Origin: Pseudanabaena sp. BC1403
GTDB taxonomy: Bacteria; Cyanobacteriota; Cyanobacteriia; Pseudanabaenales; Pseudanabaenaceae
Direction: 5' to 3'
DNA length: 64,000 nt
Assembly (NCBI RefSeq): GCF_002914585.1
Contig: NZ_PDDM01000008.1
Span: forward strand, 1 to 64,000
Shown: positions 5,532-52,048 of the stretch, in pieces
Position numbering within the stretch: position 1 is the first letter of the stretch
How the letters are laid out: each line of letters opens with the position of its first letter
Translations under genes and position numbers: made by a program
Notes under the pieces: model-generated
Databases searched by the model: none
Seen by the model: only the letters and a program-made list of their open reading frames with translations
What the model was told of the DNA's origin: nothing

Positions 5532-5702
5532 AGCCAAAATCCTCACATTTACATCAAAACCCGCAGGGACCTATTAGCTAGCGTATAACGATATTTCTCG
5601 AAACAGGTACTCGTTACAAAAAACACAACCAAAAAACACCAAAACCTATTAGGAGCATAGTATTACTGCCCCCATTAACGGATATCACTAAGATTAGCGA
5701 AG

Positions 5703-8700: not shown

Positions 8701-8746
8701 CACAAGCCAAAAAAGTCAACATCGCGATCGCAATCACCTTATTCAC
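5741..8746 (-). CDS. exported TPR-CHAT protease-like protein (copy B)
   Basis: A signal peptide precedes thirteen 40-residue TPR units, a linker and a CHAT domain with His868 (HLATHAEF) and Cys910 (LSACQTG). The start is the codon-6 GTG behind GTGAGGAT; the frame opens at 8761. Over the last 340 residues it differs from copy A at only a few positions (SVNDEG versus AVNDEG, for example), whereas the TPR arrays and the linker (QGVRILEPEKAISSQLVSIS here) differ. That pattern suggests gene conversion of the CHAT half. TPR number varies between copies (7, 8, 10, 11, 13), as expected for 120-bp tandem repeats that expand and contract. The substrate and activator are unknown. Confidence 0.85.
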   Translation of the reverse strand: MNKVIAIAMLTFLACGQVQIMMSESVQAQTNQARQNEGDLLFNQGNQQFQLSQFDAAFQSWQQALTIYREIQSRPREQAALGNLGLAYLALGKYEKAIEYQLQSVELAKVMGDRQGQANSFGNLGNAYLSLGKSEKAAEYFVQCLAIARELKDRQIEGATLGNLGIVYQNLGQYDKAIETQLLALDITRAVKDRLGEGKALGNLGAAYYALGKYDKAIDYQQQTLAITREVKNRLSEAQSLGNLGATYNAFGKYDQAIEYFQQYLAITREIKDRRGEGVALGNLGVTYKNLGKYDQAIDYQLQYLAIVREIKDRKGEGEVLGNLGITYVSLGRYDKAIDYQLQSLEIKREIKDRRGEGASLANLGIAYRHLGNYGKAIEYQLQSLAIAKEIKDRRGEGGILGNLGNSYHSSGKYDKAIEYQLQSLAIAREIKDRHSEGAALGNMGAPYYELGKYDKAIEYNLQYLAIAREIKDRSGEMHGQHTLGYAYNALKRSQEAMNSFQQALIISKEIGDRSLEGYALGSIGQVFSESKQTELAILYYKLSINVREAIRKDIRKLNKEDQRSYLGTVSSSYKKLSGLLLNQGRVMEALQVLDLLKVQELEDYLKNVKGSDRTTQGVRILEPEKAISSQLVSISHEKGAELNRNLAGQIQQLPKSEINKVPDYLKQIPQGTVLLYPLILGDQLEIIFFSPNSLPISRTVKISKTKLESLISDYRAGLLDAGSEDVKEASKSLYDVLIKPIEGELITAKAETILYAPDGILRYVPLSALYDGKQWLAEKYKVSNLIAYSLSNFSPQPKNQPNILAGAFGGNTGTKKFGQNALPATLTEVKAIASSFPNSVTLSEDGFSRQAIESKFKNHNILHLATHAEFNTGSPDNSFIIFGNGDKIRLGEIADWQIPNIDLIILSACQTGVGKLGDGVEILGFGYQVQKAGAKNAIASLWAVNDEGTQALMEAFYNELKKGDVTSTEALHRAQVALIKSPKYNHPNYWSAFFAIGNGL

Positions 8747-8857
8747 AGCCAAAATCCTCACATTTACATCAAAATTAGCAATCTCCTACTAGACAACATA
8801 AAGCTACATCCTGCAAAACAATTGGTCGTTACAAAAAATGTAACTATAGCAATGTAA

Positions 8858-8958
8858 TACCAAAAGACAAAATGGCTACGCCATTTTGTCTTTTTAAAAC
8901 CCTTACTGGGTTTGGTTTTTAATTCACAGAAGTGTTGTCACACTTTTGTGAATTGGTA
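8858..8958. mobile_element. 101-bp TNA-target palindromic element, copy 1
   Basis: The ends are TACCAA and TTGGTA, flanked on both sides by TAA (8855-8857 and 8959-8961), which reads as a 3-bp target duplication. Inside are three successive stem-loops: ACAAAATGGC/GCCATTTTGT, AAACCC/GGGTTT and AATTCACA/TTGTGAATT. No coding capacity. Other copies are at 13035, 16588, 26634 and 41876, with a truncated one at 44790. A 3-bp TNA duplication points to mobilisation by a transposase of the IS5/IS1031 type, which is not in this window. Confidence 0.75.
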
Positions 8959-16587: not shown

Positions 16588-16687
16588 TACCAATTCACAA
16601 AAGTATGACGAGACTTTTGTGAATTAAAAGCAAAACCCATTAAGGATTTTAAATCACAAAATGACTTAGCCATTTTGTGATTTGGTA
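16588..16687. mobile_element. 100-bp TNA-target palindromic element, copy 3 (inverted)
   Basis: The ends are TACCAA and TTGGTA, with TAA on both sides (16585-16587 and 16688-16690). It carries the same three stems as copy 1 in reverse order. It lies in the 458-bp gap between the DUF928 gene and the CHAT gene. The remainder of that gap (16293-16584) is AT-rich and holds no gene I can see. Confidence 0.75.
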
Positions 16688-16702: not shown

Positions 16703-16751
16703 ATCAGAAATCAGAAAGAATGAGCTTTGTTCATTCTTTCTGATTTCTGAT
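16703..16751. terminator. hairpin overlapping the stop of the third CHAT gene
   Basis: The arms ATCAGAAATCAGAAAGAATGA and TCATTCTTTCTGATTTCTGAT enclose a 7-base loop. The right arm runs to the stop codon region of the CHAT gene at 16751, so the transcript's last codons form the hairpin. Confidence 0.65.
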
Positions 16752-19363
16752 TACAGCCAATTTCCAACTAAAACGAATGGAGCCCAATAGAAGGGGTGAG
16801 TAAACTGAGGATTTTTTAGAAGGCTTAGTTGCGCTTTTCGTAGAGCCTTGGCCTTGGTTGTGTCGAGAGTTGCTAGTTCTTTATAAAAGTCTTCCATAAA
16901 TGTCGCTGTGGCATTATCCTCAACTGACCACAAACTAGCGATCGTGCTCCGTGCGCCCGAGCGCACAGCCATTCCTGCTAATCCTAATGTGGCTCGATTA
17001 TCTCCCTTTGCGGTTTTGCAAGCACTGAGTACTAATAACTCGATGGGAATTTGGCTGTCTTGTTCCCTAGATTGCAGCAATTCTCCTAATTGTTTAACTC
17101 CAAGCCGATTATTCCACGTTAAGATAAAAGTTTTTTCGGCATCAGAACTAAATTCACCATGAGTAGCTAAATGAACTACTCTATAGGAGCTTTTACTAAT
17201 TTGTTTTTGAATAGACTCACTGATAAACGCTTCATTGAGTAATGGTGTTTGAGCTGACACCAGCAAAGCAATTTGCTGAAGCTCTCTTTCAACATTTGGT
17301 AAGGCATTAAAATTTTGGGTTTCCTTACTCAACCCTCCGACAAATACAGTTAGTTGTTGGCGCTTTAGTGGGCGAGGATCAATGAGTTGTAACCCAGGCG
17401 TGATTGCCAGATTATATTTTTCCATCAAGTACTGTTGCCCATCATAAAGGACTGACATGGGCAAATTTCTCAGAGAACCATCCAGAACAAATGCTAAGGT
17501 CTTAATTTTATTCACAGCTAATATAGATTCTGTTTCTTTACCGATTAATATGTTGTAAATTTTTTCTGACGCTGCTTGAATATCGGTCTCAAGCGATGTT
17601 CGACGTAGCGATCGCCTTAATTTGCTCAAGAGACTTTCTAGTTTATCTTGAGGTATTTTGGTTGTACGGTGAAGCAAGGAACGGTTTGGCAGTGAAATAA
17701 TAACTTCTAGACTCTCAGGCAAAATGATCGGGTAGATAACAGCAGCTTGTGAATCGACTTCATCAACTTGGGTAGCCAGCCCTGTAAGACAAGCTTCTTT
17801 GAAAAAGTTATCCAATTCGGCAAGTTGTAAAGATTCGATTACTTTGCGAGCGTCTCTGAGATTTTCTTGACTAACTTGTTTGCCATGTTCTGGAGTAAGG
17901 AGTAAGGCGACAAGCTGACGGTAGACTGGTTCGACCCTATCACGAAAGGAAAACTGAATATCCGCATTGCTAGAGACAAGATCGCCTCGAATTGAATCAA
18001 GTGTATTTACAGCTTCGCTATAGGCGATGATCGCCTTGGCATTTTCGCCTTGAGATTTAAGTACTCGTCCGAGTTGCCACTGCCAGCGATAGGCAATATC
18101 TGAGGCATTATTGGTTTGGGAGAGAATGAGCGCTTTCTCGGTAAGAATTTGGGCTTCTGAAAACTGTTGAGTTTGTTCATAGAGGTTGCCCAGATATCCG
18201 ATCGCATAGGATTCGGCTCTCGGATCTCCCATCTCTTTTGCTTGTTGAGCAGCTGTGGCGAGGAACTGGGCGGAGGTTTGGCGATCGCTTGATGTGGGAT
18301 TAAGCTTAACTAGACTTTGAGCAAAGCTTACTTTTGCGTATACTGAGGCTCGGCTCGGTGGGAGGCTTGATAGTTGCGATCGCAGATCTGTTAATAATAG
18401 TTGTGCCGATTCAGGCTGTTTCGCTTCAATCTGAAGCCGCAGTTGATTTAATTTTGCTTGGACTTTTTGGATCGGAGTGGTAGCGGTACTAGCTACTTGC
18501 TGATAGTAACTGATCGCTTCGGCGGGTTGTTGTGCGCTATAGGTGGTATTTCCTAAACTCAGGAGAGCGTCGGCAATAATCGAAGGGGCATTGAGTTTTT
18601 TAGCGATCGCCAGACTTTCTTGCAATGCCAGTTTGGAACCTCGGAGATCACCACACAGCCGCAAGGTTTCACCGAGATTGAGCAGAATAGCCGCCTTGAG
18701 TGAGGAGTCGGGACGTTCTTTGAGTTCTAATTGGACTTGCTGAAGAATATCTTTAGCTTTGGGATATAAACCTAGTGATCGCATGGATTGACTCTGATTA
18801 ATCTTGCTACGAATGGCTCCGTCTTTTTCTCCTGACTGCTCGTAGGTTGCTGTCGCTTTTTGCCAAGTTGTTAATGATTCTTGAGCCTTGCCCTGTGCGA
18901 GTTGGATGTTGCCTTGAATATTCAGAGCCTGTGCTAGTAAGTTGAGTTGTTGCGGCTCGGATTGGAGGATTTCTATGCTAAGTGCGATCGTCTGATCGGA
19001 TTCTTTCCATTGACCAAGTTGTTGATATGCTAAGGCAAGATTTTGCAAAACTACAGCGTGATTGAGGCGATCGCCTTGTTTTGCATAAATATCAGAAGCT
19101 TGTTGCCAAGTTGCGATCGCATTAACATATTGACTTGATTGGAAATACTGTTTGCCTCTCTGGACAAGAGTTGCAGGGTTATCACTTCCAGATTGAGTAA
19201 GAACTATTTCAGTTGAGGCTTTTGGAGGATGATTAGCAATACTAGGTTGAGCATTCCATCCTAAGATCAGAGCAAGTATAGTTGCTAAAATTCCAAGGCT
19301 GACATAGCGAAGGAATTTACTGTTTTTGGGTTTTAGATTCGAGATGGATTCCCACAAAAACAT
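16751..19363 (-). CDS. TPR-CHAT protein, divergent type, in the adhesin locus
   Basis: The 870-residue protein has an N-terminal membrane segment or signal (about residues 20-42), irregular TPR units to about residue 480, and a C-terminal CHAT domain. The domain has His735 (HLATHGEF) and Cys782 (LSACKTA). It is only distantly related to the other CHAT proteins of this window, as its TPR units are not near-identical repeats. A good ribosome-binding site, CAGGAAA, stands six bases before the ATG. It lies downstream of the Uma2 and adhesin genes on the same strand. A role in processing or surveillance of the secreted adhesin is a guess from position. Confidence 0.85.
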   Translation of the reverse strand: MFLWESISNLKPKNSKFLRYVSLGILATILALILGWNAQPSIANHPPKASTEIVLTQSGSDNPATLVQRGKQYFQSSQYVNAIATWQQASDIYAKQGDRLNHAVVLQNLALAYQQLGQWKESDQTIALSIEILQSEPQQLNLLAQALNIQGNIQLAQGKAQESLTTWQKATATYEQSGEKDGAIRSKINQSQSMRSLGLYPKAKDILQQVQLELKERPDSSLKAAILLNLGETLRLCGDLRGSKLALQESLAIAKKLNAPSIIADALLSLGNTTYSAQQPAEAISYYQQVASTATTPIQKVQAKLNQLRLQIEAKQPESAQLLLTDLRSQLSSLPPSRASVYAKVSFAQSLVKLNPTSSDRQTSAQFLATAAQQAKEMGDPRAESYAIGYLGNLYEQTQQFSEAQILTEKALILSQTNNASDIAYRWQWQLGRVLKSQGENAKAIIAYSEAVNTLDSIRGDLVSSNADIQFSFRDRVEPVYRQLVALLLTPEHGKQVSQENLRDARKVIESLQLAELDNFFKEACLTGLATQVDEVDSQAAVIYPIILPESLEVIISLPNRSLLHRTTKIPQDKLESLLSKLRRSLRRTSLETDIQAASEKIYNILIGKETESILAVNKIKTLAFVLDGSLRNLPMSVLYDGQQYLMEKYNLAITPGLQLIDPRPLKRQQLTVFVGGLSKETQNFNALPNVERELQQIALLVSAQTPLLNEAFISESIQKQISKSSYRVVHLATHGEFSSDAEKTFILTWNNRLGVKQLGELLQSREQDSQIPIELLVLSACKTAKGDNRATLGLAGMAVRSGARSTIASLWSVEDNATATFMEDFYKELATLDTTKAKALRKAQLSLLKNPQFTHPFYWAPFVLVGNWL

Positions 19364-20038: not shown

Positions 20039-20095
20039 AACCAATAAATTTTTGGAAAGTGTCGCCAAGAGACACTTTCCAAAAATTTATTGGTT
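20039..20095. terminator. 25-bp perfect hairpin overlapping the adhesin stop
   Basis: The arms beginning AACCAATAAATTTTTGGAAA and ending in TTGGTT enclose a 7-base loop. The right arm includes the stop codon at 20087-20089. It probably ends the very long adhesin transcript and separates it from the Uma2 gene. Confidence 0.7.
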
Positions 20096-23000
20096 CGCAC
20101 AAGCAAGCTGAGGAATGGCGGGACTGAGTGGATTAGAAGCAGCAACTAACTGCAATCTGCCATTATTATCTCTAGCGACCGCATTTGCCTCGACAATAAA
20201 TTGTGGAGATTCGTTCTTTACTTCTTGTTTCTGCTCTATCGTTGAGATTTGATTTATTCTACTTGGTACGAGTTCAGCCAGTTCTACCAGAGATTGAGTA
20301 ATGGATATCTCATCACTAGGACTCTTTGGCAAGCCACCTCTACCCGCGATCGTAAAGCGATTCTCGCGATTGGATAATTTTCCTCCTACCGCACAGCTTT
20401 GACTAATCTGTTTCGACGAATCAACAAGATTGAGCGGTAAAGAAGTTAAGCCACGACCTGGATCGATATCAGGAGTGGTAACGATAACATTTCCTTGCAC
20501 ACCAAACTGAGAACTAGCTGCAATGTCACTAAAACCTGTTAATTGAGGACGAAACTCTAGTCCATAAATGCCATTAGTGGTGATATCAACTTTGCCACCA
20601 TTGCCAGTAAATGCATTAGCAAAAATATCGCTATTTTCGCCTTTCACTCCAACGATAAAACCTGCTTTGATGTTGATATTGCCACCATTGCCTCCTGCAT
20701 TTGCTGTACCTGCGGTGGTGGTGATATTGCTGCCGTAGCGTAAAAGCAATATAGATGGAACATTTAAATTTATATTGCCTCCATTGGTGCTAGCAGTTGA
20801 GGCGGTGATAGAGGAACCATTCAAAAGGGAGAGGTAATTGGCAAATATAGTGATGTTGCCACCCAGTCCTGAGCCAAGACTACCGACAGCGATTGTCGCT
20901 CCATCTTGAAGGGTGACATACTGCGGATCGATCGCAATATTGCCGCCATCTCCTGTAGAACCTAATGTGGTATTGGCAAATAAGCCAGTACCCGCTGTAA
21001 AGAGGATCGAGTTTCCTGCAATCAGTCCAATGTTGCCAGCTTTTCCACTGCTACTAGTTTGAGCAATAATTTGACTATTGTCTTTGAAGGTGATGCTCTC
21101 TCCTGCGACAACATTGATATTTCCAGCGTTACCGAGGCTATTGGTATTACTAAGGACTTGGCTGTTATTTTGGAAGGCGATCGCCGCAGGACTAGTGATC
21201 AAAATATTTCCAGCAGGGGCAATTCCTTGGGTCGTACTCACGATCAGGGTATTGTCAAAGGTGAGATTGCCTAACCCTTTAATCATTACGTCTCCCGAAC
21301 GCCCATTTTGTCCAGATCCAAAAATAGTGGTGATGAAAGTGTTGGGATCGTTGATATCATAGGCGCGCTTAGGGAAATTTACGGTCTTACTCGTAATGAT
21401 TTGAAGGTCTGCAATTTTCAAATCACCTAGACCATTAATGTTTACTGCTCCTGCTTGCCCAAAGGCTGATGAGGTAAAGAGGGCAAGATTACTGATTTGA
21501 TTTTTTGCAGTTAAATTGATCTCACCACCATTGCCACTATTTGAGCCTGCCGCAGAAATAGAGAACGACAATATATAACTAGCTAAAGCACTGGTAATAC
21601 TGCCATTGGGGGCAGATATAGAAACCGATCCGCCATTCTGGGAACCAGCAGATGAGGCTAACGAGTACGCTGACAATGTCGAATTGTTTAATGAGATATT
21701 GCCAGTGCCAGAGTATAAAGCAATTGCGCCTCCATTCCGAGAATTTGCGGATCTCGCGAATGAATACGAATACAATGTCAAATCGTTCAGCATAATGTTG
21801 CCTAACGAGTTAGCTAGAGAGATTTTCCCTCCATTTCCAGAATGATTTAATTTTGAGGATGAGTAAGAAGCTGTAGATGAGTTCAATGGAGCATTGATTA
21901 GTGAAATGTTGCCAGCATGAGAAGCCAAAGAAAATGATCCTCCATTACCAGAGGAACCAGAGCCTGAGTATGTACCAGCATCTAAATAAGTGCCAACATC
22001 CCCAAAGAAACTCCTAACATCTTTAACCGTAATATTGCCAGAATAAGTAGCAAAAGAGATGTCTCCAGCATTTCCTGAATTACCTAATGCCAAGGAAACA
22101 GAGGGTGATTTCCAGATCGGACGGGTGATCGTAATATTGCCTGAGTAAGAAGAGAGAGAAACTGATCCTGCATTCGCTGAGTTGCCAAAGTATACGAATG
22201 AAGACGATTCAAAGTACATGTTATCTAGTATGATATCGCCCGAATAAGAAGAAAATGAAATCGCTCCGCCATTCCCAGTATTGCCAAAGAGGGTAAAAGA
22301 GTCAGTGTATAATTCAGAATTCATCGTAATCTTGCCAGAATAAGAAGAAATCGCGACCGATCCTCCATTTCCTGCATTGCCAAATCCAGGCTCTGCGTAA
22401 GCGATTAAGTTTGAATTCAGCGCAATATCTCCTCGACCATAGACGCGAATATCTCCCGCGTTAGCTCCTACAACATTTGTGCCAGTATTAATTTCTTGAG
22501 TGGAAATTTTGCCTTGTAAGGAATTAGGAGTGAACTGGTTAGTTAATAGCACCAATCCACTTGGCTGACTCACGCGAATATTCCCATTCACCGTAATATC
22601 GGCTCTAGTAGGAGGATCTACATAGGTGGGAACAGGTGCGATCGCACCTGACACTGTTGGACTAGCAGGTAACCCACCCAACTGTGCCCAATCCACACCT
22701 GCTCTTATATCCAAAGTTGCCTTAGTACTTCCATCAATCGTAATTGGAGTCTGCACTGGCACAATATCCTGAACTGAGCCACTACTATTCTTAATTGCCT
22801 GATAGTCAGTCAAACTAAATGTTGCTAAATCCGCATAACGCTTAGTGGAATTAAATAGAGTCGTATTGTTGGGATTAATCGTAGTACTAACAGTTCCTCT
22901 ATTATTAATCGTGACATTCCCCATCGCCACGCTTCCCGCCGCTAAAATATGCAGAGATGCTCCTGTATAGTTACCTAAAGTCACATTACCATTAGCCAAA

Positions 23001-23902
23001 ATTACTGGATCATTAGGACTGATCAAATTACCGATAGTTCTATTCAACTTTTCGATATTTAAGTTCCCCCCAGCATAAAAATGGGCATCACCAATCACAG
23101 GATTTTGCGATCGCAACACCATATTCCTATCTGACCGAAACCTACTACTAGGATGATTTAAAGCGAAAATATCAACCAATTGATTTCCTTGCACAAGCAA
23201 ATCTCTAGCAGATGCTGCCACGAATGGACTAGTCTTAGTATCGCGAATCGTCACCGTATCTTGTGCTTGCAAAATCAGATCTCGACCTGCTTTTAATTGC
23301 CCTTGCAAGTCCAATTTGTCCGCATTTAAAACTAAATCTTTTCCCGTGAAGAGATTAGCCCGATTGCTAATAGTTGCGCCTGTATTACTTGTGCCATATT
23401 GCAATCCCATTGTAATGTTCGTCGTCAGCAATGGCGGAGCTTGGGGTGTGGTGGCACTGAACTCGCTGCCATCGGAGAACTTGAAACTATTAGCTGTACT
23501 CCCAACAAAAGTTCCACCAATATCTAGCTTCGCATTTGCCCCAAACATAATCCCGTTAGGATTGAGCAAAAATAAATTCGCATTGCCATTGGCTTTAAGA
23601 ATCCCGTCAATATTGGAGACAGAGTTTCCCGTTACCCTCGTCAAAATATTCTGAACATTCGGCGCATTATTAAAATAGGCAGTATTATTTGTCGAAACTG
23701 AGAAGTCTTGAAAACTATGATAAAGGTTAACGCCTCTTGCTGTGCCACCATCAATTGTATGGATCAATCCATTGTTTATAACTGTGGAGTCTATAGGTAA
23801 AGTATTGTCTGGGAGGATCTGTGCTGTTGCTGAAAGTGTTGCTGTGAGATAGCTGAGAGCAAATACACCTGTCAAACTGATATAACGAGGAGTAAGTTTC
23901 AT
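20087..23902 (-). CDS. two-partner-secretion filamentous haemagglutinin-type adhesin
   Basis: The protein is 1271 residues. After a signal peptide (MKLTPRY to about residue 28) comes the TPS/haemagglutination N-terminal domain, with the classic NPNGIMFG and GGTFVGSTAN motifs. A long repetitive beta-helix follows with SSYSGNI, GNGGxI and AGNI repeats, rich in Gly/Ser/Asn and without cysteines in its centre. The start is taken at the ATG MKL at 23902; the longer frame begins with TTG. Such proteins cross the outer membrane through a TpsB/FhaC-type porin, which is not in the window. It is probably an adhesin or a contact-dependent factor. It is divergent from the CHASE2 kinase, suggesting shared control. 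Confidence 0.85.
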   Translation of the reverse strand: MKLTPRYISLTGVFALSYLTATLSATAQILPDNTLPIDSTVINNGLIHTIDGGTARGVNLYHSFQDFSVSTNNTAYFNNAPNVQNILTRVTGNSVSNIDGILKANGNANLFLLNPNGIMFGANAKLDIGGTFVGSTANSFKFSDGSEFSATTPQAPPLLTTNITMGLQYGTSNTGATISNRANLFTGKDLVLNADKLDLQGQLKAGRDLILQAQDTVTIRDTKTSPFVAASARDLLVQGNQLVDIFALNHPSSRFRSDRNMVLRSQNPVIGDAHFYAGGNLNIEKLNRTIGNLISPNDPVILANGNVTLGNYTGASLHILAAGSVAMGNVTINNRGTVSTTINPNNTTLFNSTKRYADLATFSLTDYQAIKNSSGSVQDIVPVQTPITIDGSTKATLDIRAGVDWAQLGGLPASPTVSGAIAPVPTYVDPPTRADITVNGNIRVSQPSGLVLLTNQFTPNSLQGKISTQEINTGTNVVGANAGDIRVYGRGDIALNSNLIAYAEPGFGNAGNGGSVAISSYSGKITMNSELYTDSFTLFGNTGNGGAISFSSYSGDIILDNMYFESSSFVYFGNSANAGSVSLSSYSGNITITRPIWKSPSVSLALGNSGNAGDISFATYSGNITVKDVRSFFGDVGTYLDAGTYSGSGSSGNGGSFSLASHAGNISLINAPLNSSTASYSSSKLNHSGNGGKISLANSLGNIMLNDLTLYSYSFARSANSRNGGAIALYSGTGNISLNNSTLSAYSLASSAGSQNGGSVSISAPNGSITSALASYILSFSISAAGSNSGNGGEINLTAKNQISNLALFTSSAFGQAGAVNINGLGDLKIADLQIITSKTVNFPKRAYDINDPNTFITTIFGSGQNGRSGDVMIKGLGNLTFDNTLIVSTTQGIAPAGNILITSPAAIAFQNNSQVLSNTNSLGNAGNINVVAGESITFKDNSQIIAQTSSSGKAGNIGLIAGNSILFTAGTGLFANTTLGSTGDGGNIAIDPQYVTLQDGATIAVGSLGSGLGGNITIFANYLSLLNGSSITASTASTNGGNINLNVPSILLLRYGSNITTTAGTANAGGNGGNINIKAGFIVGVKGENSDIFANAFTGNGGKVDITTNGIYGLEFRPQLTGFSDIAASSQFGVQGNVIVTTPDIDPGRGLTSLPLNLVDSSKQISQSCAVGGKLSNRENRFTIAGRGGLPKSPSDEISITQSLVELAELVPSRINQISTIEQKQEVKNESPQFIVEANAVARDNNGRLQLVAASNPLSPAIPQLACANQ

Positions 23903-24198
23903 GTTTTCAATTTCTCTTAAAGCCAATTCATAAAGATCAAATTTGCAAATGAAACAGGTTTAAGCATTAGTAAAATATCGAACCTGTAATGATCTGATAT
24001 CAATATAATACCGATTTGTAGAGATAATAGACAAAGAGTTTGAGAACTCACGCAAAACAACGAGATTAGGTGCAATTTATGAATTGCTCCTACAATAAAA
24101 TGATGCTTTCAGGACATTTTTTGCGTAACTCATAACATTGCAAGAAAATAGGATGTATATACTTTTCGATAGTTGCTAATCCATTTTAAAATTTACAT
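23903..24198. promoter_or_regulatory. divergent control region between adhesin and CHASE2 kinase genes
   Basis: This 296-bp AT-rich region has no reading frame of interest. It must hold promoters for both the leftward adhesin gene and the rightward CHASE2 kinase gene. I could not fix -10/-35 elements or an operator with confidence. Confidence 0.4.
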
Positions 24199-26633: not shown

Positions 26634-26734
26634 TACCAAAACCAAAGTGGCGCAGCCATCTTTGTGTTTTTAAAACCCTTACTGGGTTTGTTTTTAAATT
26701 CACGAAAGTGTTGCCACACTTTTGTGAATTGGTA
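26634..26734. mobile_element. 101-bp TNA-target palindromic element, copy 4
   Basis: The ends are TACCAA and TTGGTA, with flanking TAA on both sides (26631-26633 and 26735-26737). The same three stems are present. The left flank GCAATGTAA is shared with copies 1 and 6, so all three probably inserted into the same type of resident repeat. It lies a few bases after the CHASE2 kinase stop. Confidence 0.75.
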
Positions 26735-40549: not shown

Positions 40550-40626
40550 ATGCCAACTGTAGAACAAGCGATCGCCTGTGTTAGAGTTTGCCAGAAGATC
40601 TTGAGCGTCTAAAAAAAGCGCAGTAA
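40550..40626 (+). pseudogene. frameshifted micro-gene before the 107-aa protein
   Basis: The ATG at 40550 opens MPTVEQAIACVRV and then a stop follows in that frame. Adding one base near 40574 instead gives a continuation LPEDLERLKKAQ and a stop at 40626, five bases before the next start. Both halves look protein-like, so a roughly 25-residue peptide seems to have suffered a one-base deletion. I cannot name it. A sequencing error or chance is possible at this length. Confidence 0.3.
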
Positions 40627-40630
40627 ACTT

Positions 40631-40954
40631 ATGACTCAACCACCACTCCCCCAACCCCAACTCGATCGCACTCCAATCACCTCCGATCAATACCTTGAAT
40701 ACACACCCGAAAAACTAGAACTATGGAGTGGATTCTATGGTTATGGTGGACAAGACTTAACAGGCTTTTATCTCGGCATCTTGGCAAACATGGGACTTCG
40801 CGAAGCCGTGCGTCATGTACCGATGTCTATATGGCTAGAAGCAATTCAAGAAGTCGCTTTGCAAAATCCTAAACTCGATGATGCAATGCGCGATCGGCTC
40901 AACCGAGGCTTAGCCGATTTGCAAGCAGTTGATCGGTATTTGCAGGAAGTGTAA
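40631..40954 (+). CDS. conserved hypothetical protein, 107 aa
   Basis: The small acidic soluble protein has a proline/glutamine-rich start (PPLPQPQ), then ITSDQYLEYTPEKLELWSGF, GYGGQDLTGFYLGILANMGL and two helices to the end. It has no signal peptide, cysteine or known motif. The compositional quality and HIP-like codon use fit a real cyanobacterial gene. It stands alone, convergent with the split CHAT gene. Function unknown. Confidence 0.6.
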   Translation: MTQPPLPQPQLDRTPITSDQYLEYTPEKLELWSGFYGYGGQDLTGFYLGILANMGLREAVRHVPMSIWLEAIQEVALQNPKLDDAMRDRLNRGLADLQAVDRYLQEV

Positions 40955-40973
40955 ATACAATACTTCGAGTAAT

Positions 40974-43618
40974 TCATAAACCATTGCCGATCGCAAAAAA
41001 TGCCGACCAATAATAGGGATGATTAAACTCTTTTGACCGAATTAGTGAAACCTGCGCTCGGCGTAATGCTTCTGCAATAGTCACATCACCCTTTTGTAAC
41101 TCGCTATAAAAAGCAGTCATCAGCAACTGTGTACCATTGTCATCAACTTTCCACAGAGATGCGATCGCTACTCTCGCTCCTGCTGCTTGCATCTGATATC
41201 CCAAACCGAGAATCTCTACGCCACTACCTAGCTTAGATCCTAGCCCCGATTGACAGGCACTCAAAACGACCAGATCGACATTATTTAATGTCCAGTTGCG
41301 AATATCACTGATTGTCGCCTTATCGCCATTGCCAAATAGAATAAATGATTCTTCAGGCTTACCGACTGAGAGATGACCATGAGTAGCTAAGTGCAGAATT
41401 GAATAAGAGTTTGCTTTGGATTCAGTAATGTTTTTGGTGAAATCAGATTCGAGCAGGCTTGTGGTATTCGCAAAGCGATCAGAGATTTTTTGGACTTCTA
41501 CTAGAGTTGCAGGCAATCCATTAAATCCTGCTCGCTGAACATCACTCTTACCACCAAAAGCTCCAGCTAAAATCCTTGGCTTTGCGATCGGTTTTGGATT
41601 AAATTTGGTAAGTGATTGGGCAGTGATACTGTTGGTACGATATTTCTCTGCCAGCCACTTTTTCCCATCATAAAGAGCAGACAAAGGAATATAGCGCAAC
41701 TTGGAATCAGGGGCATAGATGATCGTATCAATTTTGAGTTGTTCTAACTCGCTCTCAAAAGGTTTGATTAACCATGTATAAAATTTTTGTGCAGGCTCTT
41801 TCACATCATCAGAGCTTGCATCTCGCAATCCAGTTATAAAGTCAATAATTTCTTTATTCAATTCTTCTCGCTTTATACCAAAACACAAAGTGGCTGCGCC
41901 ACTTTGTGTTTTTAAAACCCTTACAGGGTTTGGTTTTTAATTCACAGAAGTGTTGTCACACTTTTGTGAATTGGTATTAGTTTAATAGTGCGGCGGATTG
42001 GTGGTGTTTTTGCAGTAATCAAGATTAATTCAAGACGATCTGCAAGAACAAGAGGATAGAGCATCACTGCGTTAGGACTCTGGGTAAGAATATCTTTGCG
42101 CAGAGCTTGGAGATTTGCAGGATCGATGGTTTGTTTTTCAGTACGGCGCAGTTCTTCAATCAGTTTTTGAACTTCAGAATTATTCAAAAAAGCATTAAAT
42201 TGCTTCTTTTGATTTTGTTCTGATTGGACGAGTTGGCTAAGACGTTGTCTTTCTGAAGCCGATAATTTGTTGTCGCGATCTTTTTGTTGAAGGTTATTGA
42301 GTTCGATCGCTAAAGCAATGATCGTCTGTTCAGGCGTTTGGAGGCTTAAGCCTTTTTCAGTTTCATCATTACCGCGCACTGTGCGAAGATAATCACTGAG
42401 TTCTTGGACTTTGAGCAGATCTAAAACCTGCTGAGCTTCAAAAATCCGATCTTGCTTGAGAAGTAAGTCAGCAAGTTGACGATAGCTACCTTCGACAGTG
42501 GCTAGATAGGACTTTTGCACTTCCTTCGGTAATTGGCGAATATCTTTACGAATTGATTCATGAACGTTGACAGCCTGCTTATAAAAGAGAATTGCCAGTT
42601 CGGTTTGCTTAAGATTGCTAAAGGCAAATCCCAAATGTTCGAGCGAATATCCTTCGCTGTAGCGATCGCCAATTTGTTTAGATATAGCCAAAGATTGCTG
42701 CAAGAAATCTATGGATTCTGTATGTTTTTCGAGGCTACCATAGGCATAGCCCAAACCATTGAGAGCATATACTACCCCATTGAGATCGCCAATTTTTTTG
42801 AAGGTTTCTAAAGACTGTTCGTAGAAACCTATGGCTTTTTGATATTGCTCTAAACTGCTGTAAGTGCTGCCTAGAGTGTAGAACGAATTTCCCTGCCCCT
42901 TAAGATCGCCGATTCGTTTTCTGATTACCAGAGATTGCTCATTCAATTCAATTGATTTTGCATACTGCTCTAAACTGTCATAAATATATCCCAATCCATT
43001 CAGCGAATATGCTTCTCCAACGCGATCGCCAATTTGCCTTCTGATGACTAGAGACTGCTCATAGAAACCAAGTGTTTTTTGGTACAGCCCTAAGCTTTCA
43101 TGGACATCAGCAAGTCCATTGAGTGCATCTGCTTCTCCAACGCGATTGCCAACCTGCTTAAAGACTATCAAGGATTGTTGGTGGAAGTCTATTGATTTCT
43201 GATATTGTCCAAGATTATCGTAAGCTTCTCCCAATCCATTTAAAGAAGTTGCCTCAACAGTGCGATCGCTGATTTCTTTAGAGATTCCTAAAGCTTGCTG
43301 ATAAGAACTAATTGCTTTTTGATATTGTCCCCAACTGTTATAGTTTCTACCCAGCCCGCTCAATGCAAATGCTTCCCCCTCACGATCTTTTATAGCTCGA
43401 TAGAGCTCTAATGCTTTTTGAAATGACTGCAAAGACTCACGATATTGACTTTTGTCAACCTGCTGATTCCCTAATTCGAGCAGCTTTTCTGCTTCTGTTT
43501 CAGAGCTTTTTTCGGTCTGTGCTTGCACAATCATCTGGAGGGAATCTGGTGGCATCACTAGACCAAATAGTACAAATGCCATCATACCCAACACTAGAAA
43601 ATATGTCTTTGTACCCAT
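40974..43618 (-). pseudogene. TPR-CHAT gene split by a 101-bp mobile element
   Basis: The right part (41942-43618) encodes a signal peptide, eight TPR units and the linker as far as RTIKL, then 11 residues read from the insert and a stop. The left part (40974-41888) encodes the rest of the CHAT domain, with His170 and Cys212 of that fragment, but its only upstream start is a TTG inside the insert. Removing the 101-bp element and one TTA copy (104 bp) leaves 2541 bp, exactly 847 codons. The join RTIKLKREEL then aligns without gaps to RTIKISKSKL of copy A. The gene was whole until recently; both halves remain free of other damage. An exported TPR protein without protease may still be made. Confidence 0.85.
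41876..41976. mobile_element. 101-bp TNA-target palindromic element, copy 5, inside the CHAT gene
   Basis: The ends are TACCAA and TTGGTA, flanked by TTA on each side (41873-41875 and 41977-41979). The three-stem interior is nearly identical to copy 1. Because the host is a coding gene with paralogues, this copy fixes the element borders and the 3-bp duplication. Confidence 0.85.
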
Positions 43619-43776
43619 TACCTTACTTTAGACAATTTGAATGTCATCATAAATAATGATGACGATAGCATCCGATATCATCAATGACTATAGCCATATC
43701 TATCAAAAAATACTCTTTTTCTTCTGTGTACCATTAATAATAAATCACATAAATTCAAAAATCTTGGGAAATATTC

Positions 43777-44775
43777 ATGAGTGGACTTGGCGGCTTAAAC
43801 AAAACCCCTAATGGAGTAGTCCTAGGGATGGTGCAACTTCAACTACCAACGGTTGTTACCCCACAAGACTTAGCAGCCCAAACCAAACGTATTTGTGAGA
43901 TGGTAGCCAAAGCAAGGCGAAATATGCCAACTATGGACTTAGTGGTATTTCCTGAATACTCTTTACATGGTTTGTCAATGGATACAAATCCAGACATTAT
44001 GTGTAAATTAGACGGGGTAGAGGTTGCAGCTTTTAAAAAAGCTTGTATTGATAATAATATTTGGGGATGCTTTTCCCTAATGGAATACAATCCTCAAGGT
44101 AATCCCTACAACAGTGGCATTATCATTGATAATCTGGGTGAATTGAAGCTCTACTATCGCAAACTACATCCTTGGGTTCCTGTTGAACCTTGGGAGCCAG
44201 GTGATGTGGGCATTCCAGTTTGTGAAGGGCCAAACGGTAGCACTCTCGCTCTAATTATTTGTCACGATGGCATGTTTCCAGAAATGGCTAGAGAATGTGC
44301 TTATAAAGGTGCTGAAATTATGATTCGCACAGCAGGATATACGGCTCCAATTCGTCATTCTTGGCAGATTACTAATCAAGCAAATGCTTTTTGCAACCTC
44401 ATGGTGACAGCTTCGGTCTGTATGTGTGGATCTGATGGGAGTTTTGACTCTATGGGCGAAGGAATGATCGTTAACTTCGATGGTGAACCTTTGGTAATGG
44501 GTAGTCATCGTCCTGATGAAATTATCACCGCCGAAGTCCGTCCTGATCTTGTCCGAGAAGCCCGCAAATACTGGAGCGTAGAAAATAATATTTACCAATT
44601 TGGGCATCGTGGCTATGTTGCAGTCAAGGGAGGGGCTCAAGATTGCCCTTATACGTATATGCAGGATATGGTCAAAGGCAAGTATTGTCTGCCTTGGGAA
44701 GAAGAGGTTGTCTATAAGGATGGAACTTCATGTGGATTCCCCTCGCCTGAACGTGTATACAATCCAATTCCGTAA
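43777..44775 (+). CDS. amiF: formamidase / aliphatic amidase, nitrilase superfamily
   Basis: The 332-residue protein has the nitrilase triad at Glu60 (VFPEYS), Lys129 (YYRKLHPW) and Cys162 (IICHDGMFPE). The overall layout (GPNGSTLALIICHDG, NNIYQFGHRGYVAVKGG, KYCLPWEEEV) follows bacterial formamidase AmiF more closely than acetamidase AmiE. It should hydrolyse formamide or short amides to ammonia and an acid, supplying nitrogen. It is soluble and stands alone, with an ATG at 43777. No convincing NtcA site was seen in the 150 bp upstream. Confidence 0.8.
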   Translation: MSGLGGLNKTPNGVVLGMVQLQLPTVVTPQDLAAQTKRICEMVAKARRNMPTMDLVVFPEYSLHGLSMDTNPDIMCKLDGVEVAAFKKACIDNNIWGCFSLMEYNPQGNPYNSGIIIDNLGELKLYYRKLHPWVPVEPWEPGDVGIPVCEGPNGSTLALIICHDGMFPEMARECAYKGAEIMIRTAGYTAPIRHSWQITNQANAFCNLMVTASVCMCGSDGSFDSMGEGMIVNFDGEPLVMGSHRPDEIITAEVRPDLVREARKYWSVENNIYQFGHRGYVAVKGGAQDCPYTYMQDMVKGKYCLPWEEEVVYKDGTSCGFPSPERVYNPIP

Positions 44776-44789
44776 TATAGCAATGTAAT

Positions 44790-44845
44790 ACCAGAAGACA
44801 AAATGGCTACGCCATTTTGTCTTTTTAAAGCCCTTACAGGAACCT
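44790..44845. mobile_element. truncated TNA-target element, copy 6
   Basis: It starts TACCAGAAGACAAAATGGC just after GCAATGTAA, the same flank as copies 1 and 4, and matches copy 1 to about CCCTTACAGG. The right part and the second TAA are missing. It lies between the formamidase and transglutaminase genes. Confidence 0.6.
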
Positions 44846-44890
44846 TTAATTTTGGGGTAAGGGCAATCCCCCGTGGTTGCCTTGCTTCGC

Positions 44891-46870
44891 TTAAGAAGAA
44901 TAGCGCTCTAGCCAACCTTGAATTGCATTTTTAAGCTGTTCTCTTTCTTCAAAGCTAATTCCTAAAGGATCAAAGCGATCGCGATAATAAAGAGCGATAA
45001 TCGATAATAACTCATCAAATGAATTCTGATCGAGATTAATCCTCTCAATCCATAGTGTCAAAGGCTCAGCAGGATTACGAAAGAAGCCACGAGCGTTTAA
45101 AGCTTGCTCGATCGCAGCGAAATCAGAATTAGTCACCTTTTGCTTAGCGGATTTCACTACTTTAGGCGATCGCCTTCTCGATGTTATCCGTCGGCTCTGT
45201 CCTTTACCCTTAAACAAAAGCCATCCTACCAAAGCCAATAAAATTACCCACCACCAACGTTTGAGAAGATCGCTAGTTTGTAATAGCTGCCCTAAACCCG
45301 ATATTTTAAACCCTAAAAAAGCCCAAAAATCTGCAATAGATTCCCATAGCGAAGCCGCAGGTTTATCCAAAGTCGTCCAATCTGGGGGTGTAGTATCAAA
45401 CTCCTGCCAAGATCCATTTATATAGGCTAAAGTCCATGCATGGGCATCTCGTCCCCGAGCCACATACTGACCTTCTAACGCACTATATTCGCTCACAGAA
45501 AAGCCCACAGCATAGCGACTGGGAATTCCCACTTTCCTTAATAGAAGTGCCGCCGCCGTAGCGAAATATTCACAATGCCCAATCCTCTGCTTCAATAAAA
45601 AAGTTGATATTGCTGTGGAGCGATTATCCTTAGCGATCACATTGTTGAGAGAATATTGAAAATTGCGATTGAAGAATTGCAATACTTTCCGCAATATTTC
45701 TTTGGGTGGTTCGCCCTTAAGCCCAATCTCATCCACAATGCGATCGAGGGCAATTTTTTCGCTCTCAGGCACATCTAAATCATCATTTGACGGTGGGCTA
45801 TCTACATTAATCCCTGTCCGAAATTTAGCTTGATAGTCAATTGCCTTTGCCGAGCCTTGGATTTCAATCGTGCCAAATTGGTTCTTTTGCAACTTCTCAG
45901 CAGAGAGTTGGCTAATTTGAAATGTGGACTGTGGCATTTTCAAGAACAGCTTGCCATTGCGAATCGTATCGCTAATTGTCAGTGAAGTATAGGGAGCGTC
46001 AGTTTTAGTGAATTGCCAAGTCAAGCGATCGGCTTCAGGTTGAATTGGTGTAAATTGAGATTTCGCCGCAAGCCAAGTAGATGAATTGTAGCGATTGTAG
46101 GTAGATTCTCGCAGCCGAATTGGGATGTGTTGTTTGTCGATCGCTACTCGAAACAGAATGTCATTGGATAGCTTGATCAGACCAATATCACCGATCGCTG
46201 TATCTTTTTCGACAGGATCGGAAGCGTTACGGGTCAAGTCACCTGATAACCATTGAATAACTGTTTTTTCTAGATTACCTTGCAAATTACGCAATCCGAT
46301 CTGCGTCACAAATCCAGCGCTACCAGCTACAAGCAAAATACAAAGACAAATTCCAATCGAAAAGCTTCTTTTTCGTATCAGCCATAAGACTCCAGCACTC
46401 AGCCCAAACATTCCTAGATAAAAGCTAATATCGCGATTACTGGATACACTCGCCGCCAAAATTGCGATCGCGAAGTAAGGAACGGTCAGGTTTATTTGCA
46501 GGCGATCGCGGGATTCTGAAGACTTGGGACGATCCCTAAAGGAAGAAAATGTGTGAAAGTCAATGACATCGGTATTGGAATAAATTTGCGCCAATAATAG
46601 AATCGATAAAATTGCAGGCAGCCATTGCAGCAGTGTATAAACAAAATAAACCGATTGGCTAGAAACGAGGAGATAAATCGTTAATCCCACAAAGCCAACC
46701 GAGCAAAAAGTCGCAATCTGTCGAAAGTCTAGTGTTGTCAAATCCCAACGAGTCGGAATCCAGTATGCTGCTAGCACCAGCACAGCGATCGGAATTGCGA
46801 AAATCCAGAAGCCTGTTTGCCATCCCCAAAATAGAACCGCCGCAATGATTAGAGGGTTTGGTATTTTCAT
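44891..46870 (-). CDS. membrane transglutaminase-like protein (TgpA type)
   Basis: The 659-residue protein has five to six N-terminal membrane helices, an extracytoplasmic transglutaminase-like domain and a further membrane helix. It ends in a cytoplasmic DUF4129-like tail. The catalytic Cys-His-Asp are in GHCEYFATAAALLLRKVGIP, DAHAWTLAY and EFDTTPPDW. It forms an operon with the DUF58 and MoxR genes, each overlapping by a few bases. Such sets are thought to build or modify cell-surface proteins, with MoxR as the chaperone-like ATPase. The substrate is unknown. ATG start. Confidence 0.88.
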   Translation of the reverse strand: MKIPNPLIIAAVLFWGWQTGFWIFAIPIAVLVLAAYWIPTRWDLTTLDFRQIATFCSVGFVGLTIYLLVSSQSVYFVYTLLQWLPAILSILLLAQIYSNTDVIDFHTFSSFRDRPKSSESRDRLQINLTVPYFAIAILAASVSSNRDISFYLGMFGLSAGVLWLIRKRSFSIGICLCILLVAGSAGFVTQIGLRNLQGNLEKTVIQWLSGDLTRNASDPVEKDTAIGDIGLIKLSNDILFRVAIDKQHIPIRLRESTYNRYNSSTWLAAKSQFTPIQPEADRLTWQFTKTDAPYTSLTISDTIRNGKLFLKMPQSTFQISQLSAEKLQKNQFGTIEIQGSAKAIDYQAKFRTGINVDSPPSNDDLDVPESEKIALDRIVDEIGLKGEPPKEILRKVLQFFNRNFQYSLNNVIAKDNRSTAISTFLLKQRIGHCEYFATAAALLLRKVGIPSRYAVGFSVSEYSALEGQYVARGRDAHAWTLAYINGSWQEFDTTPPDWTTLDKPAASLWESIADFWAFLGFKISGLGQLLQTSDLLKRWWWVILLALVGWLLFKGKGQSRRITSRRRSPKVVKSAKQKVTNSDFAAIEQALNARGFFRNPAEPLTLWIERINLDQNSFDELLSIIALYYRDRFDPLGISFEEREQLKNAIQGWLERYSS

Positions 46871-49188: not shown

Positions 49189-49290
49189 CATCAGTATATA
49201 TGTTTGCTCTCCTTTCGGATGCTGCGCGATCGCAACCTCGATTTCAGTTACAAACCATTACCGATCGCAAAAAATGCTGCCCAATAATTT
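49189..49290. repeat. direct repeat flanking the fifth CHAT gene, left copy
   Basis: This stretch (TCATCAGTATATAT, then CTGCGCGATCGCAACC and the CHAT 3' end) is repeated at 52049-52150, on the other side of the CHAT gene. The right copy contains the decayed 3' end of another CHAT gene, so the pair marks a former tandem duplication. Confidence 0.7.
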
Positions 49291-51911
49291 GGATGGTTGT
49301 ATTTTGGAGATTTGATTAGCGAAACTTGCGCTCTGCGTAATGCTTCTGCCGCCGTAATATCGCCTTTTTGGAGTTCGCTATAAAATGCAGTCATGAGTGA
49401 ACTTGTCCCCACATCATCAACTTTCCAGAGCGAGGCGATCGCATTTTTTGCACCAGCTTTTTGGACTTGATAGCCAAATCCCAAAATCTCTACCCCATCA
49501 CCAAGCGTGCCTGTTCCCGTCTGACAAGCGCTGAGGATGATTAGCTCGACATTTGGCATGTCCCAATCGCTAATCTCATTTAAACTAATTTTGTCACCAT
49601 TACCAAAAATAATAAACGAGGTGTTAGGTGCGCCAACATTAAACTCAGCATGGGTTGCTAAATGGAGAATATTATGTTTTTTGAATTGAGATTCAAAGGC
49701 TTGACGACTAAATTTTTCTTCTTGGAGAGTAGTTGAGTTTTGAAAAGAATTTGCGATCACTTGCACTTCCTTAATTGTGGCAGGCAATCCTATCTGCCCA
49801 AATTTCCTCTCAGTTGTTTTGCCCCCAAAGGCTCCAGCAAGTATCCTCGGCTGAGATTTCGATTTAGGAGAAAAATTACTGAGGCTATAGGCGATCAGAT
49901 TACTAATCCGATATTTCTCAATTAACCAATGTTTGCCATCTTCTGGATTTTCATCATACAAAGCTCCAAGAGGAACATAGCGCAATAGCCCATCGGGAGC
50001 ATAGAGAATCGTCTCAGCTTTTGCTTGCTTAAGATCCGCTTCAATGGGTTTAATCAAGACATTATAGAGCTTTGTCGCCGCCTCCCTAAAATCCTCAGAA
50101 TCACGATCCAGCAATTCCGATTTGAAGTCTTGAATTAAAATTTTGAGATCATCCTGTTTAATATTTACTGTACGGCTAATCAGTGGACTATTCTGAGAAA
50201 AAAGCACCAATTCAAGCCGATCTTCAAGAATGAGCGGATAGAATAAGACCGTGCCTTGAGGGATTTTTTTGAGATAATCTGGAACTTGATTAAGCTCTGA
50301 CTTGGGAATCTGTTGAATCTGATTTGCAAGTTGGCGATTTAGCTCAGGCATCCGCTCAAAATCAATCACTGCAACATCACGAATAAAAGCCTGCTCTGAC
50401 TCTAACAACCTTATGCCTTGAGATGTGCGATCAGTTCCCTTAATGTTTTTGAGATACTCTTCAAGCTCTTGGACTTTGAGCAAATCTATAACTTGTAATG
50501 CTTCCATAACACGCCCTTGTTTTAGCAAAAGGTCGGCAAGACGACGATAAGATTTCTCGATAGTTGATAGATATGATTTCTGATATTCTTTGCCCAGTCC
50601 CCTGATATTTTTGCGAATCGACTCTCGAACATTGATCGATCGCTTATAAAAAAGAATTGCCAGATCAGGCTGACCTTGTTGCAAGAATATATAGCCAAGA
50701 TTGTTAAATGATCGTCCTTGACCAGCGAGGTTACCGATTTGGGTGGAAATGGCTAAGGCTTGCTGATAATAATCAAGCGTTTTTTGAACTTGACCAAGTG
50801 AATTGTAGGCAATTCCGAGACTGTTGAGAGAGAGGCTTTCACCATCGCGATCGCCTATTTGTTTGGTGATTTCTAGAGCTTTTTGATAGTTCTCGATCGC
50901 TCCTTGAATATCTCCTAGTAACCGATAAGAACCACCGAGGTTGTTAAGCGTCCGTCCTTCAGTATTACGGTTACCAATTTCACGAGAAATTACTAAGGCT
51001 TGCTGAAAATAGCCGATCGCCTTGGGATATTGTTTGAGGCTATTGTGCACAATCCCAAGATTATTCAGTGCATCAGCTTCACCACTACGAGCGCCAACTT
51101 GCTTTTTCAGGGATAATGATTGCTGGTAATGATCGATCGCCTTTTGGTATTGCCCAAGCGAATCGTATGCACCGCCAAGGGTATTCAAGGCATCGGCTTC
51201 GCCATTGAGATCGCCAATTTCTTTTTTGATGGCTAGAGCTTGCTGATATTGCTCAATTGCAGTTTGATACTTCCCAATTCCATCGTAGGCAATACCGCTA
51301 GCAATATACAAATCTGATTCCCCATCGCGATCATTGATTTGCTTCAAGATGGGCAAACACTTCTGATAGTATTCAATGGCTTTGGCGTACTGTCCGAGCA
51401 GATTATAGGCGTTGCCGAGATTGCCTAAAGAACGACCTTCCCCATAGAGATCGCCAATTTGCTGTTTGATTTCTAAAGCTTGTGTATGATATTCGATCGC
51501 CTTGGTGTACTGTCCCATTGCATAGTAGACATTACCCAGATTCCCTAGTGAATTTCCTTGATTATTGCGATCGCCAATTTTTTGAGCGATCGCTAGGGAT
51601 TGCTGGTGATATTCAATCGCTTCTGGATATTTCCCCAGTGAACTATATGCATTTCCAATATTGTTTAACGCATTTCCTTCCCCCTTAAGATTTTTAATTT
51701 CGCGATAGATTTGTCGCGACTTCTCAAATACTTGTAATGCTTCGCGAAATTGACTGACTTTATTTAACTGATTTCCTCTCTCTAAAAGCCGATCTGCTTC
51801 TGCTTTGCGTGCTTGTGTTGTTTGCGCTTGGATACTTTCACTTGTCACTATTTGCACTTGCACACAAGCTAAAAAAGTCAACATTGCGATGCCAATAGCC
51901 CTATTCTTCAT
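49248..51911 (-). CDS. exported TPR-CHAT protease-like protein (copy D)
   Basis: The protein is 887 residues from the ATG at 51911 behind the conserved GTGAGGAT; the longer frame opens with GTG at 51926. It has a signal peptide, ten TPR units (less uniform than copies A and B), a linker and a CHAT domain with His754 and Cys796. It is divergent from a NACHT NTPase gene 310 bp away and flanked by direct repeats. The Asn-Gly-Leu C-terminus matches copies A and B. Protease activity is likely from the intact pair; the target is unknown. Confidence 0.85.
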   Translation of the reverse strand: MKNRAIGIAMLTFLACVQVQIVTSESIQAQTTQARKAEADRLLERGNQLNKVSQFREALQVFEKSRQIYREIKNLKGEGNALNNIGNAYSSLGKYPEAIEYHQQSLAIAQKIGDRNNQGNSLGNLGNVYYAMGQYTKAIEYHTQALEIKQQIGDLYGEGRSLGNLGNAYNLLGQYAKAIEYYQKCLPILKQINDRDGESDLYIASGIAYDGIGKYQTAIEQYQQALAIKKEIGDLNGEADALNTLGGAYDSLGQYQKAIDHYQQSLSLKKQVGARSGEADALNNLGIVHNSLKQYPKAIGYFQQALVISREIGNRNTEGRTLNNLGGSYRLLGDIQGAIENYQKALEITKQIGDRDGESLSLNSLGIAYNSLGQVQKTLDYYQQALAISTQIGNLAGQGRSFNNLGYIFLQQGQPDLAILFYKRSINVRESIRKNIRGLGKEYQKSYLSTIEKSYRRLADLLLKQGRVMEALQVIDLLKVQELEEYLKNIKGTDRTSQGIRLLESEQAFIRDVAVIDFERMPELNRQLANQIQQIPKSELNQVPDYLKKIPQGTVLFYPLILEDRLELVLFSQNSPLISRTVNIKQDDLKILIQDFKSELLDRDSEDFREAATKLYNVLIKPIEADLKQAKAETILYAPDGLLRYVPLGALYDENPEDGKHWLIEKYRISNLIAYSLSNFSPKSKSQPRILAGAFGGKTTERKFGQIGLPATIKEVQVIANSFQNSTTLQEEKFSRQAFESQFKKHNILHLATHAEFNVGAPNTSFIIFGNGDKISLNEISDWDMPNVELIILSACQTGTGTLGDGVEILGFGYQVQKAGAKNAIASLWKVDDVGTSSLMTAFYSELQKGDITAAEALRRAQVSLIKSPKYNHPNYWAAFFAIGNGL

Positions 51912-52048
51912 AGCTGAAATCCTCACACTTTACCTGCTATCTAAGATAAGTTTAAGCAGTACAAAGATAAAGCCAGTTACAAAATTGGTAACGGTCACAC
52001 TAATTTTCGATCAAGAGAATTCATGCATTTTTTAAAAGTTTTGCAATC

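Follow-up and report, generated by a model that had tools for sequence, protein, structure and literature searches.

Miniature inverted-repeat elements (MITEs) are known to inactivate genes in cyanobacteria, for example in the mcy cluster of Anabaena, as described in the relevant passages of a review (PMC10969869). The gene analyzed here is likewise a cyanobacterial gene disrupted by a short noncoding element, but in another genus and with another target gene, and its likeness to the Anabaena case in those passages is one of description rather than of sequence. Nezha, also a cyanobacterial MITE according to the lines devoted to it in two publications (PMC10969869, PMC3733652), is comparable by name and kind, not by sequence. 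Elements of the IS630 family, including ISY100 of Synechocystis, duplicate a 2-bp TA target, as stated in the section of PMC2170065 that deals with them, and for most of the pogo-group Fot elements the duplication is the 3-bp TAA, according to the pertinent section of PMC7386202. Inactivation of a gene by a mini-transposon, as at the present locus, is an ordinary and already known kind of event; a limited literature search returned nothing on miniature inverted-repeat elements and nothing on CHAT pseudogenes in Pseudanabaena.

The window, i.e., the whole 64,000-nucleotide stretch of Pseudanabaena sp. BC1403 DNA that was analyzed, contains a TPR-CHAT gene on the minus strand (positions 43618 to 40974) that is cut in two by a 101-bp MITE at 41876 to 41976. 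The element, which reads on the minus strand, is bordered by two copies of the target duplication TTA (left copy, 41873 to 41875; right copy, 41977 to 41979). A preliminary description had claimed that this element splits the gene and that removal of 104 bp (the element plus one TTA) restores the frame, and this was confirmed: once the flanks are joined, 846 residues are read in one open frame that has its sole stop at the end; the 847 codons reported earlier include that stop. The residues at the junction read RTIKLKREEL, and the paralogous string RTIKISKSKL, to which they had been said to align without gaps, was found at 3648 to 3677 of the window.

The N-terminal fragment (41942 to 43618, minus strand) comprises a hydrophobic N terminus, as judged by eye, followed by TPR repeats assigned to Pfam TPR families. 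It forms an open reading frame (ORF) of 558 amino acids, 547 of which are the gene's own; the other 11 (IPIHKSVTTLL) are read from the element before a stop is reached, as had been noted. The C-terminal fragment (40974 to 41888, minus strand) is an ORF of 304 amino acids whose first codon is a TTG within the element. It carries a complete CHAT domain (PF12770, 208 bits, profile positions 2 to 289 of 289) with the His and Cys motifs HLATHG and LSACQSG expected of the family. These two motifs we take to hold the catalytic residues. A CHAT domain behind TPR repeats is the arrangement of TPR-CHAT proteins in general (Pfam PF12770), to which a hydrophobic N terminus is added here; this stretch, by eye probably a signal sequence, remains on the TPR half. 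Csx29 of type III-E CRISPR was rejected as the identity of the protein (19 bits against a cutoff of 300), and a search against solved CHAT structures gave matches only at E 0.11 or worse.

We consider it very probable that a MITE of this genus, most likely moved by an IS630-type transposase, entered the TPR-CHAT linker at a TTA not long ago and that the protease was thereby lost. A high-copy Pseudanabaena element, mobilized in trans by a resident IS630-family transposase sharing its ends, would have landed at the linker TTA and duplicated it. Translation of the TPR part would then halt 11 codons into the element, and the CHAT part, left near its beginning with non-ATG starts only and deprived of the hydrophobic N terminus, would no longer give a working protease. 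Between 41906 and 41690 there are five in-frame starts, four TTG and one GTG, and no ATG. By a simple test none of the five has a ribosome-binding site, a weak result inasmuch as the same test also misses the neighboring amidase gene; the gene's own start has the ribosome-binding site TAAGG. An unrecognized start might still allow the CHAT part to be produced, and since both domains are complete, one may ask whether the cell now synthesizes TPR and CHAT as separate proteins that continue to cooperate. The nature of the five starts argues against such a functional split, as do the missing hydrophobic N terminus of the CHAT part and the hairpins of the element, whose gene-strand RNA folds at -48 kcal/mol (z -9) and which probably hinder translation, and we regard it as very unlikely. 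Loss of protease function is, as far as the sequence can tell, the likely outcome, and the most suitable interpretation of the allele is that of a null mutation of recent origin on which selection acts weakly or not at all.

Uninterrupted versions of the gene occur in related genomes. The orthologues in G015 (93 to 94% identical) and G020 (89.5 to 90% identical) both have 845 codons, align without gaps across the insertion site, and do not contain the element. It is likewise not seen in the more distant homologues of G004, G023, and G025 (71 to 77%), and the one in G004 reads through with 844 codons. In the two sister species G015 and G020, the orthologue is located elsewhere in the genome, so that they show the uninterrupted gene rather than the same locus empty. 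At the window locus, the flanking genes of these two genomes lie about 205 bp apart, and since the orthologue is found elsewhere, the gene must have changed place within the genus. The corresponding interval in the window, 40955 to 43696, holds the TPR-CHAT gene; the G015 orthologue adjoins another TPR-CHAT gene.

These orthologues also bear on the possibility of an assembly or sequencing artifact. The genome contains many copies of the element, which favors an artifact, but the element is only 101 bp long and both of its flanks belong to one orthologous gene. Furthermore, the target duplication is present and of the same type as at other copies, and the contig extends over 190,865 bases. We therefore consider an artifact extremely unlikely, even more so than a functional split.

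The gene is also interrupted in a third species (G018), where a different insertion lies about 40 bp beyond the MITE site, near two contig ends (L014, about 3179 to 3356; L039, about 2371 to 2700). We infer that the two contigs belong together across this insertion, which consists of the ends of another insertion sequence (IS) with imperfect inverted repeats and, by eye, a 6-bp TTATAA duplication; no match to it was found among the plasmids searched. An insertion hot spot was considered and dropped: simple arithmetic puts the probability that two insertions into a 2.5-kb gene fall this close (about 40 bp) at roughly 3%, which is too weak. That G018 shows this gene broken as well suggests that the genus may lose its CHAT proteases readily.

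The element itself has the makeup of a MITE. It is short, has terminal inverted repeats (TACCAA...TTGGTA) and subterminal hairpins, and encodes no transposase or other product, the longest frame crossing it being 35 codons. Three further full copies are present in the window, at 8858 to 8958 (plus strand, 94%, TAA on both sides), 16588 to 16687 (minus strand, 83%, TTA on both sides), and 26634 to 26734 (plus strand, 90%, TAA on both sides), together with a partial copy of element bases 1 to 52 at 44789 to 44840 (plus strand, 87%). Elsewhere in the genome, three further copies are 100% identical over the 101 bases, among 40 scored of 275 first-look candidates. Two contiguous stretches of the same genome (395,866 bases together) contain 16 full and 10 partial copies. 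Matches to the element were observed in all 26 Pseudanabaena genomes searched, the poorest genome having one match at E 2.3e-15.

For 8 of 31 consensus pairs of the folded element, at least one copy had both sides changed with pairing kept, a count made without a control on 21 copies that are related rather than independent. This alignment (A2) consists of copies hand-picked for diversity and differs from a first alignment (A1, 22 rows) in that one row was dropped, six were turned round, and two were trimmed anew. No known RNA family matched positions 40600 to 44900 in an Rfam search up to E 1, and a simple scan for intrinsic terminators inside the element found none on the gene strand and two on the opposite strand.

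The target duplication was assessed on a larger number of copies, these being mostly the best-scoring matches to this element plus those in the two contiguous stretches, so that young copies are overrepresented in the sample. Flank and frame counts were confined to full-length matches (those ending no more than 3 or 4 bases from the query ends) located off locus edges, with duplicates removed. Identical 3-bp TNA flanks were seen in 54 of 60 distinct full copies, i.e., a duplication of fixed length as is typical of MITEs, and the remaining six were without a match. Since random triplets would agree at a rate of 1.8% and the two sides share the fourth base in only 19 of the 54, we conclude that the duplication is 3 bp long. 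The matching flanks were TAA in 34 cases, TTA in 18, and TCA and TGA in one each; TAA and TTA thus account for 52 of 54 duplications, compared with 50% of the TNA triplets in the sequence examined, which indicates that TWA is the preferred target. REP/RAYT and IS200/605-type elements are not known to make a target duplication, and the matching duplications in 54 of 60 copies rule out this identity for the element.

Two matches to the ends of the MITE revealed an IS with the ends TACCAAATCACAAAAG, and one of them adjoins an IS630-like coding sequence. Such ends, with equal TNA flanks, were present in two copies, of 1143 bp in G005 (L213) and of 949 bp in G007 (L191), as well as in four further ones (L228, L231, L241, and L245). 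The copy in L231 has poorer ends, with CGCCAA at one of them, and those in L191 and L241 are shortened to 949 bp. Because the search for IS ends had preset T and A at the outer flank positions, leaving the middle base as the sole independent test in the six paired copies, these copies back the 3-bp duplication less than the 60-copy MITE count does.

The transposase of this IS belongs to the IS630 family. The family model NF033545 (cutoff, 100 bits) scored 138 bits for L191 and, in L213, 129.8 bits for the second frame and 81.9 bits for the first; the transposase also carries PF13358 (DDE_3 domain). A plasmid of Pseudanabaena galeata CCNP1313 contains the L213 sequence without any difference, annotated there as an IS630 family transposase, and this annotation occurs in two Pseudanabaena plasmid records (H6 and H7). 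The IS630-type element at L213:1504-2646 is flanked by TTA at either end, and its transposase is spread over two frames that overlap around eight consecutive T (A on the coding strand) and is possibly read by frameshifting. A whole single-frame transposase was not identified in any IS copy examined, and none was completely readable in the strain's own genome.

In that genome, all seven matches to the IS are end pieces located at contig ends, four of them from the transposase-start end and three from the other. The four transposase-start pieces point to at least four IS copies, and no copy is assembled whole because the assembly stops inside the IS. The end of the resident IS equals the left end of the MITE over the first 15 bases, so that an IS630-family IS with the same TACCAA-type ends is available, in pieces, as the likely autonomous counterpart. 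By these shared ends, a resident IS630-family transposase is most likely what moves the MITE in trans.

In its target duplication, the candidate parent appears to depart from its family. The transposase shares its family with ISY100, here with a DDE_3 domain, but the parent IS and the MITE have 3-bp TNA duplications (TAA or TTA in nearly all matching MITE pairs) where the pertinent section of PMC2170065 gives TA for the IS630 elements it covers, and the transposase of the best copy, L213, lies in two reading frames. The MITE flanks do not reduce to a 2-bp TA duplication: such a reading would need the end of the element to shift by one base between copies, and it fails for the TCA and TGA copies. 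The parent IS thus appears to make a 3-bp TWA duplication, which, going by the limited literature search, may be new for a bacterial IS630-type element. The Fot elements, also within the wider IS630-Tc1-mariner group and with their own 3-bp TAA duplication, are eukaryotic, and we set them beside the parent IS by description, from the same section of PMC7386202. The wider point of the locus lies in this element family, which has matches in every genome of the genus searched and has an IS630-type parent that apparently duplicates TWA.

A 3-bp TNA duplication had suggested an IS5-family parent, and a scan of IS5-type loci found none. The scan covered loci with PF13340 and PF13359 (25 genomes, 30 loci each, among the matches listed), loci with PF01609 (own genome, 8 loci), and other collected loci. 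Only two weak TNA-flanked pairs with TACC ends were detected, in L024 and L138 (14 and 13 of 20 bases alike, respectively), and their ends are unlike those of the element beyond TACC. Matches to the element ends in two of the scanned loci pointed to IS630-type ends.

The copy in the TPR-CHAT gene occupies an exceptional position within its family. Among the 54 full copies examined in the strain's own genome, it is the only one whose surrounding frame extends without a stop for 60 codons or more in each direction (about 400 and 299 codons). Random points pass the same open-frame test in 55% of 3,000 trials, and a random 104-bp skip passes it in 3.5% of 3,000 trials. Given the latter rate, the copy count taken alone speaks to avoidance of genes, and it is the uninterrupted orthologues which establish that this copy truly lies in a gene. 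The family otherwise resides mostly between long frames, whether by target choice or by selection.

The insertion looks recent, since three identical copies exist in the genome and the CHAT half has not decayed. In comparison with G015, the dN/dS ratio of the CHAT half was 0.06, with 1 nonsynonymous and 10 synonymous changes on this lineage versus 2 and 9 on that of G015, so that nothing in this half points to a long time without function. For the TPR half, the ratio was 0.35, with 23 nonsynonymous and 19 synonymous changes on this lineage versus 5 and 10 on the G015 lineage. Many of the TPR-half differences fall, by eye, within the first approximately 120 residues, where they perhaps look more like exchange with a paralogue than like decay. 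The excess of replacements could also reflect relaxed selection, before or after the insertion. The preliminary description of a recent insertion into otherwise undamaged halves is accordingly upheld by the intact G015 and G020 genes, the identical copies, and the constrained CHAT half, and is qualified by the replacement excess in the TPR half.

The same features might be expected of a reversible switch, in which the resident transposase would excise the element precisely at low frequency, so that part of the population has the protease switched on. Both halves are free of stops and frameshifts, the CHAT half is under constraint, dropping the element with one TTA restores the frame, and IS copies with matching ends, at least four by our count, appear to be at hand. 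Yet an insertion so young would appear intact regardless, and a single assembly cannot display mixed alleles. Moreover, ISY100 is cut two nucleotides inside its 5' ends, as stated in the part of PMC2170065 concerned, a mode of cutting that would leave footprints and argues against clean excision. We judge a switch to be very unlikely as well, though slightly less so than a functional split. If it did operate, only a few cells would have an active TPR-CHAT protease, and this would happen in a genus where CHAT genes vary in location and number. With recent insertion and gene loss as the favored reading, the locus clearly captures the state of a cyanobacterial protease gene shortly after a MITE has broken it; uninterrupted versions from sister species are at hand, and a probable helper element has been identified.

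Several other genes of this type were observed in the window. A second TPR-CHAT gene lies nearby at 49248 to 51926, and similarity to the G015 region stops just before it, at 49201. A TPR-CHAT-like gene at 16751 to 19363 adjoins a large gene at 20087 to 23926 that by eye resembles a secreted protein of the hemagglutinin type. Finally, the neighboring ORFs at 2766 to 5546 and 5741 to 8761 share identical stretches around the CHAT cysteine motif, with LSACQ at 3039 to 3053 and at 6014 to 6028.
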